This document shows, piece after piece, positions 1,029-31,596 of a stretch of 64,000 nt of DNA. The DNA comes from Bacteroidota bacterium. GTDB taxonomy: Bacteria > Bacteroidota > Ignavibacteria > Ignavibacteriales > Ignavibacteriaceae. The notes under the pieces were generated by a model that was not told the DNA's origin, made no database searches, and saw nothing but the letters and a program-made list of their open reading frames with translations. Made by a program: the position numbers and the translations under genes. Each line of letters starts with the position of its first letter. Positions within the stretch are counted from its first letter, which is position 1. Location of the stretch: positions 1-64,000 of the forward strand of contig JAKBMG010000104.1 in assembly GCA_021831685.1 (NCBI GenBank). Reading direction: 5' to 3'.

Positions 1029-1064
1029 TGTCCAAAAACGAACGGTGTTGTACGATATCGAACA
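1029..1064 (+). promoter_or_regulatory. Tandem activator-like dyad sites upstream of sigma-54 promoter
   Basis: Two 16-bp sites lie 20 bp apart centre to centre, about two helical turns. The second (1049-1064) reads TGTACGATATCGAACA, a dyad with one mismatched pair. The first (1029-1044) reads TGTCCAAAAACGAACG and matches the second at 11 of 16 positions. Both fit TGTnC-n5-CGAAC. They sit ~70-90 bp upstream of the -24 element, the usual location for an enhancer-binding protein. The remaining sequence back to 837 shows only a short GC palindrome (881-890). That these sites bind an activator is inference from symmetry, spacing and position. Confidence 0.6.
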
Positions 1065-1124
1065 TTCATATGTTTACTAAAAATTGAAAAGGTTTTTATT
1101 TTCAAGAATTCTTAATTGAAGAGA

Positions 1125-1140
1125 TGGCATTTTTATTGCT
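1125..1140 (+). promoter_or_regulatory. Sigma-54 (-24/-12) promoter
   Basis: TGGCATTTTTATTGCT matches the sigma-54 consensus TGGCAY-N5-TTGCW at every defined position, with GG and GC separated by exactly 10 bases. It lies 106 bp upstream of the ABC-permease ATG on the same strand. No other intergenic region in the window showed a comparable match by eye. Confidence 0.8.
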
Positions 1141-1246: not shown

Positions 1247-3622
1247 ATGTTAACTAATTATTTAAAAGAAACTACTAGGAATCTTGCAAGATTCAAGATA
1301 TATACAATAATAAATGTTGCAGGTTTAGCTATTGGTTTAGCGGCGGTCATACTAATTACTCTTAACATTATATTTGAATATAGCTTCAATAGTTTTCACT
1401 CCAATGAGAGTCACATCTACCGGATAGGAACAACCTTTGAGAGACAAGGAAAAACCATTTCAAGTACACCAGAATTTGTCGCTGCATTAGGGCCTGCAAT
1501 GATGGGGTATTTTCCAGAGATTAAAAATTTCGTCCGAATTTCATCCCCTGATCCTATAGAGTTAACTTATATAAATAATTCCTATTCTGTTGATAAAAAT
1601 GTATATGCAGATTCCAGTTTTTTTGATGTGTTTTCATTTAAACTCCTTGAAGGAAATAAAAAGCTAGCATTGTCAGATCCTTATTCAATAGTTCTGACTA
1701 AAAGTACTGCGGCTCTAATTTTTGGTAAGAGCGATCCTCTTGGGAAAGTAATCATATATGAGAAGACACCGTATAATATAACCGGAATAGCAGCTGATCC
1801 TCCAGAAAACTCGGATATACAATTTAATTCGGTAATATCTTTCTCGACACTAAGTAGTCTTCCGAATAGTCAGCACTTCCTTGGTTGGAAGGGTGGAAAT
1901 CAGTTCATAACATATGTACAATTAAAAAAGAATTCATCTCCAAATGAGTTAAGCAGAAAATTCCCGGATTTCCTATGGCTTCATCTGAATAACGAACTAT
2001 TAAATATTAGTTGCCAAGAAATACTTCGGTTGGAACCTCTTAAGGATATTCATCTTCATCTTAATGATGATTCTATTACTATAAGGAGCAACGTTGATAC
2101 GTTTTCAATCATAGCGATTTTCATTTTGATTATCGCTTCTTTAAACTTTGTGAATCTATCAACCGCACGCGGCATTCAAAGAGCGAAAGAGGTGGGCGTA
2201 AGAAAGGTTCTTGGTGCAAAAAAGAATTCACTAGTAATTCAATTCCTCGCTGAGTCTATAGCTGTGTGTTCGATTGCATTTTTGCTTGCAATAATGCTTG
2301 TAGAATTACTCTTACCGTTGTATGACAATTTAATTAACAAACATTTAGTGCTTGCAAAATTAATGAGCTGGGAATTCATTTCCTTTCTTCTTATCCTCCT
2401 TATCTTTACTAGCATTGCCTCTGGTTTATACCCTGCCTTATTTCTTTCCAACTATAAAGCAATCAATGTTCTTAAAGGAAATTTACTTCAAGGAAAACAG
2501 AAATTAGTTCTAAGGAAATCTTTAGTCATTTTTCAATTTGTAGTTTCAATATTTTTGATAGTTTCAACCTTTGTAATAAATGACCAGCTTCGATATATAA
2601 GGGACAAGGATCCCGGGTTTATCAAAAATAACATATTAGTTATACCACTAACAGATAATAAGCTAAAAGAAGAATATGAAGTTTTCAAAACCAAGCTTAA
2701 ACAAATTCGGAGTGTTGTAAATATCACGGCTTCTTCAAATTATCCACTTGCTCCGGGTGGATTTACAAGCAATGGTTACTTACCAGAAGGATATAATTCT
2801 CCGTTAATGATTCATGCATTAGATTGCGATGAACATTTTCTAAACACATATGGTATCAAGCTATTAGCGGGAAGGAATTTCAATAACAGGATTGCTTCGG
2901 ATCAAAAAGGATTTTTGATAAATGAATCAATGGCCAAGTTACTTCCCTGGTCTAATCCGGTTGGGAAAATAATATCAAGAAACGGGACTAACACAATTAT
3001 CGGAGTTGTGAAAGATTTCAATTATTCATCATTATATCATCCAATTCAACCGCTAATTATTACTGATAAACGGGAAGCCACTCATATCAATTATATTTTG
3101 GTAAAGCTGTTATCAAGCAATATGAAGCAAACTTTGGTTTTGATAAAAAATGCGTGGAATGAATTTGCTCCGGGAATTCCGTTTGATTATCATTTTCTGG
3201 ATGAGGAATTTGATAATAATTATAGGGCAGATATAATCTTTCATGAAATGTTTGCAGCATTTAGTGCCTTAGCAATGATCGTTGCAATGCTTGGTTTACT
3301 TGGACTTGTTTCATATTCAATTTCTCTTCGTACAAAAGAAATAGGGATACGCAAAGTACTTGGAGCTTCAGTCTTTGAGATCAATAGATTGCTTGTCGGT
3401 GATTATATCAAGTGGGAAATAATAGCAAACATAATTGCCTGGCCGATTGCTTATATTTTATTGAGGCAATGGCTTGAAAGATTTGCATATAAGATAGATT
3501 TTAATATTTGGATGTTTGTTGATCCATCGATAATTGTGCTCACTGCTGCCTGCACATTGGTTAGTATGATGGCATTTAGGATATCGATAAAAAATCCAAC
3601 AGAATCGTTACGGTCTGAATGA
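1247..3622 (+). CDS. MacB/FtsX-type ABC transporter permease
   Basis: This is an inner-membrane permease of the MacB/FtsX superfamily in the ~800-residue, duplicated Bacteroidota form. The start MLTNYLKETTRNL followed by a TM segment (INVAGLAIGLAAVILI) is the typical N-terminus. A periplasmic MacB core follows (~30-270), then an FtsX domain with three TMs and the cytoplasmic motif RAKEVGVRKVLGAKK (~275-410). A second TM plus periplasmic core (~425-660) and a second FtsX domain with RTKEIGIRKVLGAS (~675-790) complete it. Such permeases transmit ATP hydrolysis mechanically to periplasmic partners. No ATPase gene is adjacent, so it must borrow one. A TTG at 1235 in frame is an alternative start; ATG was preferred because it matches the family N-terminus, although GAGGAG then abuts the start codon directly. 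A sigma-54 promoter lies upstream. Confidence 0.9.
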   Translation: MLTNYLKETTRNLARFKIYTIINVAGLAIGLAAVILITLNIIFEYSFNSFHSNESHIYRIGTTFERQGKTISSTPEFVAALGPAMMGYFPEIKNFVRISSPDPIELTYINNSYSVDKNVYADSSFFDVFSFKLLEGNKKLALSDPYSIVLTKSTAALIFGKSDPLGKVIIYEKTPYNITGIAADPPENSDIQFNSVISFSTLSSLPNSQHFLGWKGGNQFITYVQLKKNSSPNELSRKFPDFLWLHLNNELLNISCQEILRLEPLKDIHLHLNDDSITIRSNVDTFSIIAIFILIIASLNFVNLSTARGIQRAKEVGVRKVLGAKKNSLVIQFLAESIAVCSIAFLLAIMLVELLLPLYDNLINKHLVLAKLMSWEFISFLLILLIFTSIASGLYPALFLSNYKAINVLKGNLLQGKQKLVLRKSLVIFQFVVSIFLIVSTFVINDQLRYIRDKDPGFIKNNILVIPLTDNKLKEEYEVFKTKLKQIRSVVNITASSNYPLAPGGFTSNGYLPEGYNSPLMIHALDCDEHFLNTYGIKLLAGRNFNNRIASDQKGFLINESMAKLLPWSNPVGKIISRNGTNTIIGVVKDFNYSSLYHPIQPLIITDKREATHINYILVKLLSSNMKQTLVLIKNAWNEFAPGIPFDYHFLDEEFDNNYRADIIFHEMFAAFSALAMIVAMLGLLGLVSYSISLRTKEIGIRKVLGASVFEINRLLVGDYIKWEIIANIIAWPIAYILLRQWLERFAYKIDFNIWMFVDPSIIVLTAACTLVSMMAFRISIKNPTESLRSE

Positions 3623-3690: not shown

Positions 3691-5025
3691 ATGAAAGTGG
3701 AAAGTGAAGTCAAAGCAAAAAGGATGTTATTCTTTAAAACAAATATTAAGTCATTTCTAAAGGTTTCTACTTTACTAATTTTCTTATTTATATCTAAAGC
3801 AGCCGGAGAAGGCAACACAATCAAAATTAACTCTTATAAAATCAATGTAGAGTTTGCGGAAAATAATCAGCTTCAAGTTAAGGCAGATGTAGAATTTTAC
3901 AAAAAACAATCCGGAGGAAAAATATTATTTCTAATCGACACTAGTATGACGTTTACGAATATTCATTTAGCCGAAAATAGAAAATCCTCAATTTTACAAT
4001 TTGTAAAGAATGAAGATACACTTTTGCTGTATATTCCTTCCTCGAAGAGTAATGAAAAAGAATTCCATGTATTGTTTGAATACACTATGCCGATTGACTC
4101 TTTATCCGGCGGGGCAACTGAAATGGGATACTGGTACCCTTATCTTTTTAACAATATTTCTAAATTTATGATTATTGCTAAAATGCCGTATAGCTATTCA
4201 ATGTTTTTCCCTGGTATCCTTTTAAAAAAGTATATTAACTCAAAAAGCATCAAATATATTTGGGAAACTGATAAACCCTTACCTAGATTATTTGGGGTCA
4301 TTGCAAAATCAGATGCTTACACCGAAAGTAAATCGGTGATAAGAGGGAAAATGTTGGATATTTATTTGCTGGCCAAAGATAGGGGCCTAATGCATAGATT
4401 TAAGAGTGAATCGGAGAAGGCATTTAAATTCTTCAGCGATTATATAGGGCAATACAGATATAAAAGTCTAACATTTATTGAAGTTCCGGATATGAAATAT
4501 GTTAATTCTCAACCGTCATTTATTATGATGGGATCTATATTTCTGGATTATTATAAGAAAAATCTATATGATTGGCCGCCGCATGAAATTGCTCATCAAT
4601 GGTTCGGTTCCGGAATATTTGCTAAACAGGGTGATCTAAGGTCATGGTGTATGTTTGAACCACTAGCAGAATATTCCCGTCTAACATTCACTGCAAGCGA
4701 TTCAGGCAAAGTATACATGGAAAAGGAAATCAAAGGGATGATTGATGAATATAAATCCGATTATGAAAGCACAAAGTACGATAAGCCATTGATAGAAACA
4801 GGAGGATCACGGGTAACATACATAAAGGGCACTTATGTAATGAATAAAATCGCGGAGATGTGCGGGCAAGAAAAATGGCAAGAATTCCTCGAAAAATTAT
4901 TTGACCATTTTCAAGGGAGGTTTTTAACCTATAGTGATTTCATAAAATATTTATCTAAAATAAATAATAAAGCTGGTAAGGCAGCAAATGAAATGTTTAC
5001 GACTACCGGACTAATTAAAGAATAA
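3691..5025 (+). CDS. Secreted M1-like metallopeptidase
   Basis: A 444-residue protein with a hydrophobic N-terminal export segment (~24-40) after a basic stretch. The zinc motif HEIAHQWFG is at residues 298-306, and the third ligand is probably E323 in the segment W-C-M-F-E-P-L-A-E-Y-S, equivalent to W-L-N-E-G-F-A-E-Y of M1 aminopeptidases. The spacer from HExxH to this Glu is 20 residues rather than the canonical 18. No GxMEN exopeptidase motif is seen; the place it would occupy reads FIMMGS. The N-terminal half would correspond to the M1 beta-domain. It has a good ribosome binding site (AAAGGAG), lies 68 bp after the permease and leads into two more exported proteins. Peptidase activity is likely from the motif; substrate unknown. 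Confidence 0.8.
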   Translation: MKVESEVKAKRMLFFKTNIKSFLKVSTLLIFLFISKAAGEGNTIKINSYKINVEFAENNQLQVKADVEFYKKQSGGKILFLIDTSMTFTNIHLAENRKSSILQFVKNEDTLLLYIPSSKSNEKEFHVLFEYTMPIDSLSGGATEMGYWYPYLFNNISKFMIIAKMPYSYSMFFPGILLKKYINSKSIKYIWETDKPLPRLFGVIAKSDAYTESKSVIRGKMLDIYLLAKDRGLMHRFKSESEKAFKFFSDYIGQYRYKSLTFIEVPDMKYVNSQPSFIMMGSIFLDYYKKNLYDWPPHEIAHQWFGSGIFAKQGDLRSWCMFEPLAEYSRLTFTASDSGKVYMEKEIKGMIDEYKSDYESTKYDKPLIETGGSRVTYIKGTYVMNKIAEMCGQEKWQEFLEKLFDHFQGRFLTYSDFIKYLSKINNKAGKAANEMFTTTGLIKE

Positions 5026-5058: not shown

Positions 5059-6324
5059 ATGAAGATGAAAAATAAATTATTTATCTTTTTTATATTGTCA
5101 ACTATATTGCTTCCGCTTTATGGTCAAACTACAAACCTTAAAGAAGATGCAATAAAAGTAGCTGAAAAAGGGAACTATACAAAAGCAATTGAGTTGTTGG
5201 AAAAGGCAAAAACAGAAAGTCCGAATGATCCTGAGATTTATTATTACCTCGGTGTTTTCATGCATTATCTTTCTTACGATTCAGTACCATTGGTTGGATA
5301 TAACAGCAGCTACCCTGATAAAGTTTTAGTAAACCTGGAAAAAACAATTAAGCTGAAACCGGATTATGGCAATGCTTATTATTTTATCGGAGCGCAGTAT
5401 GGCGCTAATGCAATTGATGCCTTGCTAGACGGAAATGAGGAAGAATATAAAATAGCATTCAAAAAAGCTTATGATGCAGGAGCGTTCCCGGTTTGGTTAA
5501 TTGAATATGACAGAAATATATTAAAATCTTGTCCTGAGAATGCAATACTGTTTGTAACAGGAGATGCTGTATTTGATCCTATCCAATATTTGCAAGAAAT
5601 AGAAAATTACAGAAAAGATGTCACGGTTATTGCTTTCCCTTTCTTAAATAGGCCATGGTATGTAAATATTCTGAAAAACGGTTTTAATGATGTAATAACG
5701 AAAATCCCGATTAGGATATCCTCAAAACAAATAATGGATATTCATCCGTATAAATGGGACACTTTGGAAGTTAATATTCCTATTTCGGAAAAACTAAAAA
5801 ATGAATTTAACTTACCTATTGATGCAATAATGAAATGGAGTCTTGAACCCGATATGGATTCTAACAACAGATCACTGTTGAGTACTAATTTAACCATTCT
5901 GTTAAATATTATTGAATCAAATAAATGGGAAAGACCAATCTTTTTTTCTCTAGGATTTATGCCGTCAACTTTTTCCGGTTTAGAAAAGAATTTCCAATTA
6001 TACGGCATGGCTTTTAGGCTGCTTCCATTTAAAACAGAGAAAACAAATTATAATATAAATGTTTCTAAAATTGAAGAAGTGCTATTAAATAAAAATAATA
6101 TCAAAGATTTCAAAGAGGTGAATAAACATAATATGCCAAGGGCATCAAATATGCTTGGAAATTATTATTGGGTTCTCTATAACCTTGCAGATTATTATAA
6201 AAGTAAGAATCAATTGGACAAAATCAGGCAATTAGAAAATTATATAAAGGAATATTTAAATACAGATACATTACAATATGGAAATAAAATTTTGCAAATG
6301 ATTGATAAATTAGCAAAGAATTAA
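5059..6324 (+). CDS. Exported TPR protein with DUF2723-tail-like domain
   Basis: Signal peptide (~1-22, ending LYGQ) and then TPR-type helices (~28-125; pattern AEKGNYTKAIELLEKA and NDPEIYYYLGVF). From ~150 the sequence resembles the soluble tail of DUF2723/TMEM260-type membrane glycosyltransferases: CPENAILFVTGDAVFDPIQY, then RKDVTVIAF-x-LNRPWYV, and later KWERPIFFSLGF followed by LYGMAFRLLPF. The multi-TM catalytic part of that family is absent, so this is a free-standing tail domain joined to TPRs, probably a binding or scaffold protein in the periplasm. The assignment rests on remembered family motifs. An ATG at 5065 has better spacing to AGAGG than the first ATG. It sits between two metallopeptidase genes and is probably co-transcribed. 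Confidence 0.7.
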   Translation: MKMKNKLFIFFILSTILLPLYGQTTNLKEDAIKVAEKGNYTKAIELLEKAKTESPNDPEIYYYLGVFMHYLSYDSVPLVGYNSSYPDKVLVNLEKTIKLKPDYGNAYYFIGAQYGANAIDALLDGNEEEYKIAFKKAYDAGAFPVWLIEYDRNILKSCPENAILFVTGDAVFDPIQYLQEIENYRKDVTVIAFPFLNRPWYVNILKNGFNDVITKIPIRISSKQIMDIHPYKWDTLEVNIPISEKLKNEFNLPIDAIMKWSLEPDMDSNNRSLLSTNLTILLNIIESNKWERPIFFSLGFMPSTFSGLEKNFQLYGMAFRLLPFKTEKTNYNINVSKIEEVLLNKNNIKDFKEVNKHNMPRASNMLGNYYWVLYNLADYYKSKNQLDKIRQLENYIKEYLNTDTLQYGNKILQMIDKLAKN

Positions 6325-6402: not shown

Positions 6403-7539
6403 ATGAGAAAAATATTGGTATTATTTTTTTTAATTTCTACTATTTCATTAACGATAGGACAGACAAAAAAGGTTCATTTATTTATTAATAATGGTGTTGA
6501 CACTTTAGATCCAAACATTTTGTCAGTAGTAAAAACCTGGGATGCGTACCTTAAATCAAACCCTGATAGCAGCTATGATAATCCATATTGGCTTAAATCG
6601 GAAATCACAAAATACAAATCATTTGATTTATTAAATCATTCATGGTTTTATCCAAGTTTATATTATCTAATGCGCTATTTCAGACCAAGTGTATTGAGCG
6701 TTTCTGAAAATAAAGATCATTATACTATACGCACATTATTTGCTAACGCACCAAAGTCCGATTCAGGTTCAATAAATACATTAGCTATAACTGAAGTTGC
6801 GGCGGTAAAGCAAAGCGGGAAAATTAAGCTGTGCAATATCTTACAATTTAATACTGCGAGTTGGGAGAGAGAGGAAATAGGCAGCATAACATTTATTTTC
6901 CCTAAAAGTCACAGATTCAATCGCTTATTAGCTGAACGATTAAGCAATTTCGTTGATTCACTTGCTGTTTTATGGAACCTTAAAACAAAATCTACGGAAT
7001 ATTATTTTGCCGATGACTTTGATGTTGTTGCAAAAGCACTAGGCATGGATTATAGAATGGGAGAAGGAAATAAAATAAAACCACGCGGATTTACTGATAT
7101 AATCAATGGTCTTGTATATGCCGGGGGAAGCGACGAATGGTTTCCTCATGAATTTGTACATATTTATATAAACCCATTATTCCCTGATGCAAATTCTTAT
7201 TTCCTTGAAGGCTATGCAACACTTATGGGAGGCACAGGAGGAAAATCTTTCGAGTGGAATATTAATAATGTTAATATTTATCTCAAAAAACATCCTGAGA
7301 TGAGTGCGTTGAATTATACCGGAATAGATTATTTCACCGGACCAGAATATACGATAGGTGCGCTATTATGTAAAATGGCATTAGATAAGGGTGGGTTAAA
7401 ACTGTTAAAAAAGCTAATGAGTTATGGAAAAGGAGAAAATAATTTATATAAAGCAATAAAAGATGTTTTTAATATTGATAAGCCTAACGTTGATAAGTTT
7501 ATCCGGGCAAAATTAGATGAGTACAGTTCAAAGAAGTAA
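6403..7539 (+). CDS. Secreted HExxH putative metallopeptidase
   Basis: A 378-residue protein with a signal peptide (~1-19, ending TIGQ). The motif HEFVH is at 249-253 and is followed 16 residues later by E269 in the segment LEGYATLMGG. This is the gluzincin arrangement of two His in HExxH plus a downstream Glu, with a short spacer. The N-terminal ~180 residues show no recognisable domain. It does not resemble the M1-like protein upstream outside the zinc motif, so the cluster holds two unrelated metallopeptidase-like proteins. It lies 78 bp after the TPR gene and ends the run; the next gene is convergent. Function beyond the zinc site is not known. Confidence 0.7.
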   Translation: MRKILVLFFLISTISLTIGQTKKVHLFINNGVDTLDPNILSVVKTWDAYLKSNPDSSYDNPYWLKSEITKYKSFDLLNHSWFYPSLYYLMRYFRPSVLSVSENKDHYTIRTLFANAPKSDSGSINTLAITEVAAVKQSGKIKLCNILQFNTASWEREEIGSITFIFPKSHRFNRLLAERLSNFVDSLAVLWNLKTKSTEYYFADDFDVVAKALGMDYRMGEGNKIKPRGFTDIINGLVYAGGSDEWFPHEFVHIYINPLFPDANSYFLEGYATLMGGTGGKSFEWNINNVNIYLKKHPEMSALNYTGIDYFTGPEYTIGALLCKMALDKGGLKLLKKLMSYGKGENNLYKAIKDVFNIDKPNVDKFIRAKLDEYSSKK

Positions 7540-24960: not shown

Positions 24961-27420
24961 TTAAAGAAATTTCTTAATTACTTCATCAAGGTAGGGATGA
25001 AATTTTACGGGAAGGTTTTTGTACTTTGACTGCAAATTATTCTTTACTGTTTCAAAGTCTTTGCCTGCAAATATCTTTACATCGGTCTCTATATTCTTGA
25101 CAAATGTTTGTAGTTTTGCTTGTACTCTGCTATTCATTTCTGCATCATCTGAAGCGGAAAGGATGAAAGAAGTTGCATTCAAATCAAAATTATTTTCTAC
25201 CAAAGTTTTTAGCGAAAAACCCCTGTAATTTTCCGAAACAACGTTTCGACTGACATTTCCTAATTCTTTTGCAGTTTCAGTAATGGAAGAATGAGAGAAT
25301 TTTTTATGGCGCAAAGATTCAATAACGATGTCGTCAAAATTAAATTTGCTGTCTTTAACAATTTCATCCGGTAAATCGGCAAGCTGGATTAAATTTCGTT
25401 CGGCGCTTCTCGCAAAAATTGCGGCTCGTTTAATTACTGCTTCCAACTCTCTAACGTTGCCTTTCCATTCATATTCTAAAAGTGATTCCGAGGCAGATTT
25501 TGAAAATAGAAATCTGCTTGTTTCCTTTTCTAAAAAGTAACGGGATAATATCAAGATATCTTCTTTTCTGTCGCGAAGAGGTGGTAATTCAATTTTAATT
25601 ACGTTCAACCTGTAATAAAGATCTTCTCTGAATTTTTTTTCTCTTACTACAGTTTCCAAATTCTTATTTGTCGCAGCAACAATACGTACATTAGTGTGAA
25701 ATGTTTTTGAAGAACCCACCTTTTCATAATCACCGGTTTGAATTACCCGAAGAAGTTTTATCTGGAAATTCTCTGTTGTTTCCGCGATTTCGTCAAGGAA
25801 AATTGTTCCGTTGTTTGCAGCTTCAAATCTCCCAATTTTATCGTTTATTGCTCCGGTAAAAGCGCCTTTAACATGACCGAATAATTCACTTTCTAGTAAA
25901 GTGTCTGAAAGTGCACCACAGTTTACGGCTACAAAATTATTGTTGTTTAGTTTGCTCAATTTATGGATTGCTTTGGCAACCAATTCCTTTCCCGTGCCGC
26001 TTTCACCAAGAATCAAGATGTTTGCATTTTCAGGTGCCGCCATTTTTATCAAGCTTACAACATTATTCATCGCTTTAGAACGATAAATAATTCCATGGAA
26101 GTCTTGGGTGTCGTTATTATTATCTTTTTCAACCGCCTCTTTATCATCTTCCTTTTCTCTTAGCTTGTCGATGTCCGATTTCAAGGATTTTATTTTTTCC
26201 ATCAACTTAAATGAATTTGCACTTTCGGAGACATTAAGCTCTTTTTGAAGATTAGAAAGTTCCTCTTCCTTAGTTAAAAGTAACGATTTAAGAATCTGAC
26301 TTTCATCAATGGCACCTTCAAGAAGAATCTTCTTTTCAAAAAGATAAAAGAATATGTCACTTAAAAGAAATGCTAACATTGGCAAAAAATAAAACGAATA
26401 TCCAAGCTGATAATTAAAATAAGCGTAAAGAATAAATGAAATGGCAATAAAAGGCACAAAAGCATAGATGTAAAATCTAAATAAATGTTCTTTGATTTTT
26501 TTTGTCTCAAAGGACAAGAGTATGAAAACTAATAGTAGAAAGATAATTCGGGAAAGGATAAGGAAATTATCGTTAAGAAATCTATGTTTTAGAATATTAT
26601 CAAGGGCAAAAGCATGAAGAACTACACCGGGAACACCGGAATCAAAATTTGTAGGAAACACAGAAGCTATATCGGGATCGCTAATACCAATTAAAACTAT
26701 TTTGCCCCTTAATAGATTTAATGAATCACAGTTGTTATTTACAAGTTGGAAAAAATGAAGAAGTGAAAATTGACGGAACTTCTTCCATGACGAAATGAAA
26801 TTTACTTTTAATTGTTTATCCTCTGCAAACTTGTATTTTGGTCCAGCAAGCTGAAGAGAAAAAGCTTTTTCGATCTGACCATTGCTGTTGAGGTATAACG
26901 GTATATTTATACCGTTATCACTGACATAATTCAGATGACCGGTCTGAAAAGTCGAATCTAAAAGTTTTGGACTCGGGTAACTTAAAGAGTCGGTATAAAA
27001 TTTTCCTCTTGAAGAATAAACTTCACCTGCGACTGAACTTAAGATTACTCTTCCCGACTTTTCAATTTCTTTTGTAAGAAGATTATCGTACAAAGTTTGA
27101 GTTACAAACTTAGCGCTAAGAAAAACTTCCATGCCGATTTCATTTACTCCGTAATCTGATAATTTATTTACAAGCAATGCGTAATAACTTCTTTTAATTG
27201 GCCAGTGACCAAGAGTATTAATGTCCGTAGATGAAATATCAATTATCACGATGTTGGTATCCGGTTGAGCTTGTCCGCGGAAGTGGGCATAAACATTTTC
27301 AACGTTGTGGTCAAAAAAATTTCTCACGTTTGGGTAAAGTACTAACAACAACAATACTGCGCCAGCAAAAGTCCTTTTAATGATACTCTTATTCTTCAGT
27401 ACTGATTTCAAATTCGGCAT
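24961..27420 (-). CDS. CHASE2-domain sigma-54-dependent activator
   Basis: A membrane-bound enhancer-binding protein of ~819 residues. An N-terminal TM anchors an extracytoplasmic CHASE2 sensor (~35-275, with IVIIDISSTDINTLGHWPIKRSYYALLVNKL). Three TMs (~285-365) and a coiled coil (~375-425) follow. The AAA+ domain has Walker A GESGTGKE (~472) and the sigma-54-contacting GAFTGA loop (~519), plus ATNKNLE and the arginine-finger region FREDLYYRLNVI. An HTH-like segment (SSITETAKELGNVSRNVV) is followed by ~80 further residues of unknown function. It converts a periplasmic signal into sigma-54 transcription. An in-frame TTG four codons upstream is an alternative start. It lies 32 bp after hslU. 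Confidence 0.9.
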   Translation of the reverse strand: MPNLKSVLKNKSIIKRTFAGAVLLLLVLYPNVRNFFDHNVENVYAHFRGQAQPDTNIVIIDISSTDINTLGHWPIKRSYYALLVNKLSDYGVNEIGMEVFLSAKFVTQTLYDNLLTKEIEKSGRVILSSVAGEVYSSRGKFYTDSLSYPSPKLLDSTFQTGHLNYVSDNGINIPLYLNSNGQIEKAFSLQLAGPKYKFAEDKQLKVNFISSWKKFRQFSLLHFFQLVNNNCDSLNLLRGKIVLIGISDPDIASVFPTNFDSGVPGVVLHAFALDNILKHRFLNDNFLILSRIIFLLLVFILLSFETKKIKEHLFRFYIYAFVPFIAISFILYAYFNYQLGYSFYFLPMLAFLLSDIFFYLFEKKILLEGAIDESQILKSLLLTKEEELSNLQKELNVSESANSFKLMEKIKSLKSDIDKLREKEDDKEAVEKDNNNDTQDFHGIIYRSKAMNNVVSLIKMAAPENANILILGESGTGKELVAKAIHKLSKLNNNNFVAVNCGALSDTLLESELFGHVKGAFTGAINDKIGRFEAANNGTIFLDEIAETTENFQIKLLRVIQTGDYEKVGSSKTFHTNVRIVAATNKNLETVVREKKFREDLYYRLNVIKIELPPLRDRKEDILILSRYFLEKETSRFLFSKSASESLLEYEWKGNVRELEAVIKRAAIFARSAERNLIQLADLPDEIVKDSKFNFDDIVIESLRHKKFSHSSITETAKELGNVSRNVVSENYRGFSLKTLVENNFDLNATSFILSASDDAEMNSRVQAKLQTFVKNIETDVKIFAGKDFETVKNNLQSKYKNLPVKFHPYLDEVIKKFL

Positions 27421-27452
27421 TGTTTTTACCAAAAGTTATTACTTTTTGTAAA

Positions 27453-29461: not shown

Positions 29462-30136
29462 CTAAAAAATTTGTTTTGATTTGACATTTTTCACTATGTT
29501 GAAAATTTTATTCCAATATAAATATATCGGTACAATTCTCGGAACCTGGTTTTGATAATCAATATAAATTTGACCGAACATCGCTACCATTTTAATTTCT
29601 TCATAAAAAGAACCTATATAAAAATAAGCAATAATGCAGGCAAGAAAGCTCGCATAAAACAGAGTCATCTCCGGTCTAAAAACTAAAAAGACTATAGAAA
29701 AAAAATATACCGGATGCCGGCAATATTTATAAGGTCCTTCAATACGTAAAGTTAGTTTTTCATCAAGTTCATCAATTCTGTATTGATGATGATACCATCG
29801 AAAGATCTGATTTATTCCTAAAAATTCTTTGGAGGAAAAATATTTGAGTGTCCAAAGTAAACCGGCAAGCCCCAAGAATTCCGGAATTAAAATTATAAAA
29901 TCAAACGGATACGGAAGATCATAAACAATTAACTCTGGGTGTGGAGCAATCTTGTATATTACTCCAAATGATATTAATGAGAAGAGAACATATGTTAAAC
30001 GATAAAATGCTATAAGGCTACCGAATTTTTTTATTAGAAAGTTCTTTACTCTATATGAAGCTAAATAGGAATGCATGTAGCCAAAAATTCCGAAGAGCAG
30101 AAATACTGCAATAACATCGACGGAATATTTTATCAT
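29462..30136 (-). CDS. Isoprenylcysteine methyltransferase-family membrane protein
   Basis: 224 residues with about six TM segments. The C-terminal signature of the ICMT/NnrU-like methyltransferases is clear: GPYKYCRHPVYFFSIVF, then EE-x7-FGQIYIDYQNQVPRIVPI. The family methylates small or lipid-linked substrates using S-adenosylmethionine at the membrane interface; in bacteria the substrate is mostly unknown. It overlaps the rpoN stop by 4 bp, so it is translated with sigma-54. A functional link is not obvious. Confidence 0.8.
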   Translation of the reverse strand: MIKYSVDVIAVFLLFGIFGYMHSYLASYRVKNFLIKKFGSLIAFYRLTYVLFSLISFGVIYKIAPHPELIVYDLPYPFDFIILIPEFLGLAGLLWTLKYFSSKEFLGINQIFRWYHHQYRIDELDEKLTLRIEGPYKYCRHPVYFFSIVFLVFRPEMTLFYASFLACIIAYFYIGSFYEEIKMVAMFGQIYIDYQNQVPRIVPIYLYWNKIFNIVKNVKSKQIF

Positions 30137-31596
30137 AGTTCTCTGCGTAGCCTTGCAATTGGAAGCCTTAACTGTTCCCTGTATTTTGCTACGGTGCGTC
30201 TGGCAATATGAATACCTTCGTCATTCAGCATCTCGGCTAATTTATCGTCGCTGTATGGAAAATTTTTATCTTCCGATAAAATAATTTCTTTCAATCTTTC
30301 TTTAATATGCTTGTTTGAAATCTCTTCGCCGGAGTCAGTGCTTAAGCCTTCACTGAAAAAATATTTCAGCTCATGAATTCCCATCGGGTTTTGAACATAT
30401 TTGCCGTTAACCACACGGCTTATTGTAGAAATATCCATGCTAATTTCATCAGCTATATCTTTGTAAATCATTGGTCGTAAAAACTTTGGACCCTTATCGA
30501 AAAATTCATACTGCTTTTCTACAATTGCCTGCATAATTTTCATTAGGGTTTCACGTCGCTGCTGGATGCATGCGATAAACCATTTCGCTGATTCAAATTT
30601 TTCACGCAAAAACTTATAAGTGTTCTTATCCCTTTCCGAAGTTTTCTTGGTCCTTTTATTTGAGTCGATCATTTCCAGATAAGTTTTGCTTAATGTTACG
30701 GAGGGAACGCTGCGGTCGTTCAAAGTGATTATAAAATCATCTTCAACTTTTTCAATTATAAAATCCGGTGTAATTTGATTCATCTCAACCGATTCTATAT
30801 TCCCTTCGCCCGGTTTTGGATTTAAGCTTTGAATCAAATCTATTGTGGCTTTTAATCCTTCGTCAGTCAAATTCATTTTTTGTTTTATGGAATCAAAACG
30901 CCTCTGTGTAAAATCACGGAAGTGTTTCTCAAGCATTTCTTCAGCAAGATATGAATAGTAAGGATCGTGAGAAGAATTTCTTAATTGAACAAGAAGGCAC
31001 TCTTGCAAATTTCTCGACGCTATCCCTACCGGATCAAATGTTTGAATCCTTTTAAGCAATGCTTCAGCAACCTCAGGCTCAATGCTAACATGTTCGAACA
31101 TTTCAAGTTCTTTTAAAATTTCAGGTAAGCTTGTCTTCAAATATCCGTCCGCGTCCAGATTCCCGATAATTTCCTCTCCCAACATTAACATATTCGCATC
31201 AAGACTAATCATCCTTAATTGCTCTTGAAGATGTTCGCTAATTGATTCTTTTGCAGGAGCCAGGGGTTGATAAATTTCATCGTCTTTACTTCTGTTTGAA
31301 CGATCGCCTTCAAATTCATTATCGTTCATAAAATCTTCTAGCTCGAATTCTTCATCGGAATTATTTTCGTAATCTTCATCAACTTCACTGGTTTCATCAT
31401 TCTTATCTTTCTCTTCGGAATCTATTGTAATTTCCATCTCCTCGTCCATCACTTCTTCGAGAATTGGATTTAGTTCAAGCTCGGTTTTAATCCTTTGCTC
31501 AAGAGCCATGGTATTTAGTTGAAGCAATTTTTGATATTGTATTTGCTGCGGCGATAATTTTTGTTGCTGCGAAAGTTTTTGACTTAGAGATAACAT
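30133..31596 (-). CDS. rpoN: RNA polymerase sigma-54 factor
   Basis: 487 residues. Region I is Gln/Leu-rich (QKLSQQQKLSPQQIQYQKLL, residues ~6-25) and contacts the activator. A long acidic region II spans ~45-110. The core-binding domain includes NPKPGEG, and the RpoN box ARRTVAKYRE near the C-terminus reads the -24 element. Only 4 bp separate it from the DUF3109 gene upstream. It serves -24/-12 promoters such as that at 1125-1140, together with activators such as the CHASE2 protein in the same cluster. Confidence 0.97.
   Translation of the reverse strand: MLSLSQKLSQQQKLSPQQIQYQKLLQLNTMALEQRIKTELELNPILEEVMDEEMEITIDSEEKDKNDETSEVDEDYENNSDEEFELEDFMNDNEFEGDRSNRSKDDEIYQPLAPAKESISEHLQEQLRMISLDANMLMLGEEIIGNLDADGYLKTSLPEILKELEMFEHVSIEPEVAEALLKRIQTFDPVGIASRNLQECLLVQLRNSSHDPYYSYLAEEMLEKHFRDFTQRRFDSIKQKMNLTDEGLKATIDLIQSLNPKPGEGNIESVEMNQITPDFIIEKVEDDFIITLNDRSVPSVTLSKTYLEMIDSNKRTKKTSERDKNTYKFLREKFESAKWFIACIQQRRETLMKIMQAIVEKQYEFFDKGPKFLRPMIYKDIADEISMDISTISRVVNGKYVQNPMGIHELKYFFSEGLSTDSGEEISNKHIKERLKEIILSEDKNFPYSDDKLAEMLNDEGIHIARRTVAKYREQLRLPIARLRREL

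Follow-up and report, generated by a model that had tools for sequence, protein, structure and literature searches.

The closest described regulators are activators of the NtrC, ZraR and AtoC type. The system analyzed here shares with them an activator composed of receiver, AAA+ and Fis-type HTH domains, paired dyads ahead of a -24/-12 promoter, and a target beside the regulator gene, but differs from them in its GAFTDA loop and in having ABC exporters of the MacA/ADOP type as targets. Among exporters, MacAB and the darobactin exporter DarBCD have an adaptor, a separate ATPase and FtsX/MacB_PCD permeases in common with the present system, whereas here the permeases form arrays of duplicated (ADOP-like) proteins under predicted sigma-54 two-component control; no darobactin cluster was seen. 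BceRS-BceAB systems are intramembrane-sensing modules, in which a kinase with two N-terminal membrane helices works with FtsX-type transporters and an OmpR-type regulator. The kinase discussed below likewise has two membrane helices, a very short loop, no outer sensor domain and a link to FtsX-type transporters, but it is paired with a sigma-54 activator of the NtrC type, not with an OmpR-type protein, and sensing via the transporter is here only proposed. Finally, sigma-54 promoters have been predicted at COG0577 FtsX-like permeases, in Bacteroidia among others, and were called first evidence (PMC12316311, 2025), so that the sigma-54/FtsX-permease promoter class is already known. The link from promoter to permease is the same as the one reported here; in the text searched, that article gives neither an activator nor an enhancer motif or satellite targets, and in the literature searched we found no paper naming the regulator, the enhancer motif or site, spacing rules or satellite targets.

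The window (the whole analyzed stretch of 64,000 nucleotides) opens at a contig edge with a truncated protein (1-388) that carries a C-terminal sorting domain of the YPNPFNP type, typical of type IX secretion cargo. Further on, two dyads can be read directly, TGTCCAAAAACGAACG at 1029-1044 and TGTACGATATCGAACA at 1049-1064, both candidate enhancers without assigned strand. Each is 16 bp long, and their starts are exactly 20 bp apart. On the forward strand, 60 bp beyond the second dyad, which is enhancer distance, lies the -24/-12 element TGGCATTTTTATTGCT (1125-1140), which reads TGGCAT-N5-TTGCT and matches TGGCAYN5TTGCW exactly; 106 bp separate its -12 box from the ATG of a permease gene at 1247. 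A preliminary description of this DNA had drawn attention to both the perfect promoter element and the two similar dyads upstream of it, and their presence at 1029-1140 is confirmed. The best reading of the sequence is that they make up a complete sigma-54 control region, with regulator binding and activation as predictions. Transcription would start near 1152, about 12 bp beyond the GC of the -12 box, which gives a predicted forward-strand leader of 1152-1246 in which we found neither an Rfam match nor a terminator.

The genes behind this region form a collinear forward-strand cluster. The first (1247-3622) codes for a duplicated ABC permease of 791 amino acids with Pfam MacB_PCD and FtsX domains; it is ADOP/DarB-like, although it scores below the NCBIfam cut-offs for ADOP (251 bits vs 622) and DarB (115 vs 700). 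It is followed by an M1-like metallopeptidase with a HEIAH motif (3691-5025), a TPR-repeat protein (5059-6324) and, closing the cluster, a putative metallopeptidase with a HEFVH motif and no Pfam match (6403-7539). The sigma factor itself, needed in trans, is encoded by rpoN on the reverse strand of the window, as had been noted before (30133-31596; TIGR02395, 431 bits vs a cut-off of 277). Control of the permease cluster by sigma-54 is well supported at the level of sequence.

Taken singly, neither string is enriched in the 4.5-Mb genome over its reversed control: the exact TGGCAYN5TTGCW pattern has 3 matches vs 5, and the single dyad, when one mismatch is allowed, 30 vs 48. The tandem dyad, at up to two mismatches, occurs at two places only, in the window and on contig C145; the signal lies in the tandem arrangement. 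When the 410-bp intergenic region was shuffled 2000 times, an exact promoter match appeared once and a tandem dyad with at most one mismatch never. A matrix built from 96 dyads that adjoin regulator genes of other genomes, none of them from the window, yields the consensus YGTNCR-N4-YGNACR. Across the 64 kb, the two window dyads take its first two ranks, at 19.7 and 17.6 bits. Together they reach 37.3 bits; the runner-up pair, in which one of these dyads appears again, reaches 12.5. Elsewhere in the genome, no dyad pair was found ahead of same-type permeases (C127, C133, C148, C201) or of shorter MacB-type permeases, several of these genes beginning near contig ends.

The second tandem dyad, CGTACGATATCGGACA-CTAC-TGTCCATATACGTACT at C145:1676-1711, keeps the same 20-bp register and lies between divergent genes, for a MacA/HlyD-like adaptor on one side and for an NtrC-type response regulator with its histidine kinase on the other. 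A sigma-54-like element, AGGCAC-N5-TTGCT, can be read on the adaptor side. Adaptor and permease match the DarC and DarB models below cut-off. The regulator (G000:C145:1924-3300), in a genome with about 25 strong sigma-54 activators, has receiver (PF00072), AAA+ (PF00158) and Fis-type HTH (PF02954) domains above cut-offs; its best NCBIfam match, TIGR02915, scores 401.6 bits vs a cut-off of 502.6, and no equivalog is reached. Its sigma-54 contact loop is GAFTDA, not GAFTGA, which counts against it as the activator, although activators with GAFTDA have been reported to be functional (PMC4641369). The same loop is present in 80 named orthologues, a biased set partly gathered with an AFTDAKED probe; in unbiased relatives the regulators have mostly GAFTDA, besides GAYTDA, GAFTSA and GAFTNA, and most paralogues have GAFTGA. 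The partner kinase is encoded at C145:3290-4645. Nearly all partner kinases examined have at the N-terminus two membrane helices joined by a very short loop and lack an outer sensor domain, an architecture that suggests intramembrane sensing.

Presence of the tandem dyad (at most one mismatch) follows presence of this regulator across genomes. With orthologues called at 57-99% identity (paralogues are at 46% or below), the regulator was detected in 17 of 59 relatives and the site in 13, all 13 among the 17 regulator-positive genomes and none among the 42 others (p=5.9e-10). A class-wide sample of 159 genomes contained 24 with the regulator, 21 with the site and 14 with both; the site is thus found in 14/24 regulator-positive vs 7/135 regulator-negative genomes (p=3.4e-9, or p=1.6e-7 once positives overlapping the set of relatives are removed), all these p-values resting on independence between genomes, which does not hold for related ones. 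In some genomes of the class the regulator is present and no site is found at this threshold; as most genomes are draft MAGs, a missing regulator or site can be an assembly gap. The seven matches inspected in regulator-negative genomes, one per genome and with a further match in G087 left out, overlap open reading frames away from regulator, MacA and permease genes. Genomes with the regulator contributed 32 distinct sites, of which 28 adjoin the gene for the regulator, for a MacA-type adaptor or for a permease of this type. Another three lie ahead of unrelated genes, and the last falls inside a gene. Tandem dyads ahead of non-exporter genes were seen at G010:C157:502-536, G019:C53:16282-16316 and G065:C3:120646-120680, in front of genes for a 1023-aa protein, a 162-aa protein and a short HTH-like ORF; these are possible extra members of the regulon. 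Two genomes have diverged dyads and no detected regulator orthologue: G007, with dyad pairs in a permease cluster (L276, G007:C404), and G005, with tandem dyads and TGGCATTATTGTTGTC recognized by eye (L281, G005:C103). Either an assembly gap or another regulator would account for them. The upstream DNA of the G005 orthologue, where the upstream region is apparently longer, could not be aligned with that of the window. The co-occurrence with the regulator gene argues from sequence that the dyads are a specific activator site, as the preliminary description had supposed.

The arrangement of sites in relatives follows consistent rules. Culturable relatives such as Roseivirga spongicola and Marivirga sericea have the same system. 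Among 77 named regulator loci, from Bacteroidota, KSB1, Aminicenantes and others, 48 have a dyad pair upstream of the regulator at a spacing of 20-22 bp or, rarely, 30-33 bp, both whole helical turns; other spacings yield near zero pairs, and so does a control stretch. The core locus runs from kinase and regulator across the dyads to MacA, ATPase and two to five tandem permeases. Satellite sites stand before lone permeases (G029, G040, G042, G047, G057, G065, G178 and others), and the window site belongs to this class. A GG(C/T)(A/G)(C/T)-N5-TTG box lies 38-70 bp from the dyads on the gene side in 10/10 permease sites and on the other side in 0/10, by an expression composed once these ten sequences had been seen. 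As a test, the MacA sites are more independent, and here the same box occurs on the MacA side in 20 of 48 (0.12 expected from shuffles). On the regulator side it is present at 11 of 48, and auto-activation of the regulator is thus possible as well. In 34 of 42 MacA regions the best sigma-54 match is 53-56 or 64-66 bp from the dyads, distances one helical turn apart. The window element, at 60 bp, is the strongest promoter of the ten permease sites; outside the window the GC of the -12 box is often degenerate (TTGT, TTGA, TTGG), and most homologous promoters escaped a strict GG-N10-GC score but were recovered by best-score matching. Dyads thus lie near other -24/-12 sites in relatives, an outcome in favor of the preliminary description. 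Two Aminicenantes loci (L165, L168) have near-perfect -24/-12 elements on both strands of the regulator intergenic region, which suggests that the regulator itself is also auto-activated by sigma-54. Genome G046 contains an unusually long tandem array on contig C35 (partly covered by L279), with about a dozen ADOP/DarB-like permease genes on one strand over roughly 30 kb.

The same rules bear on the idea that the dyads bind a repressor or a non-sigma-54 regulator and that the -24/-12 match is a coincidence. The dyads do have a generic operator form, and many homologous sites have a degenerate -12 box. We nevertheless regard this reading as improbable, given the TGG(C/T)A box that stands at a fixed distance and in a fixed orientation at many loci, the whole-turn dyad spacing, the co-occurrence of the site with a sigma-54 activator gene, and the perfect promoter match in the window. 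Sigma-70-like matches are moreover close to shuffle level (4 vs 2.4), with none downstream of the dyads.

It had also been proposed that target and regulator may form a pair within the window. The preliminary description is supported as to the promoter, the dyads and sigma-54 control, but not as to a local regulator. The window encodes a single sigma-54 activator (24961-27432), a CHASE2 + AAA+ protein whose GAFTGA motif is intact, and this intactness speaks for it as the driver of the promoter. Pfam, however, recognizes no HTH or other DNA-binding family in it, which makes it a poor candidate, even if a degenerate helix-turn-helix may be present around residues 715-740 (SSITETAKELG-NVSRNVVSENY). 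Moreover, its gene adjoins hslUV and lies close to rpoN, not to exporter genes, and across genomes the dyads track the C145 regulator, whose upstream region holds the sole other genomic copy. Control by the local protein is a shade less probable still than a repressor. Independently of this promoter, the protein is possibly an activator that works without a classic DNA-binding domain. That strings resembling a promoter and dyads came together by chance in AT-rich intergenic DNA, a reading for which the lack of genome-wide enrichment of either string alone could be cited, has a negligible likelihood in view of the shuffles, the top ranks that an independent matrix gives these two sites among all 64 kb and the gene context conserved in other genomes, and is refuted by the comparative data.

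Sequence and spacing, conservation, co-occurrence with the regulator and gene context together suggest a model in which the permease cluster of the window belongs, very probably, to a sigma-54 regulon that is conserved and in which one two-component system drives ADOP/DarB-like ABC exporters. Dimers of the C145-type NtrC-family regulator would bind both dyads on the same face of the helix. Once phosphorylated in response to an inducing signal, the regulator would form an ATPase ring and loop to the sigma-54 polymerase at 1125-1140, and transcription of the permease/peptidase cluster would begin near 1152. The main target would be the operon of MacA, ATPase and permeases that diverges from regulator and kinase. 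As this operon shares the tandem dyad beside the regulator and kinase genes, the window cluster is predicted to be a satellite target. More tentatively, and with odds that we put well below even, the two-component system could be the sigma-54 counterpart of Bce-type flux-sensing modules in several phyla, with a kinase that would read the state of an FtsX-type exporter and a regulator that would raise expression of the main operon and its satellites.

The proposed pathway pairs a specific candidate regulator with a DNA motif and with exporter targets, in bacteria whose sigma-54 regulons have been little explored. For annotation, the motif can be written as YGTNCR-N4-YGNACR, present twice, 20-22 bp apart, before TGG(C/T)A-N5-TTG, and may be used to find exporter regulons in Bacteroidota and neighboring phyla. 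To the published link between sigma-54 and FtsX-like permeases, it would add the missing activator, as a prediction.
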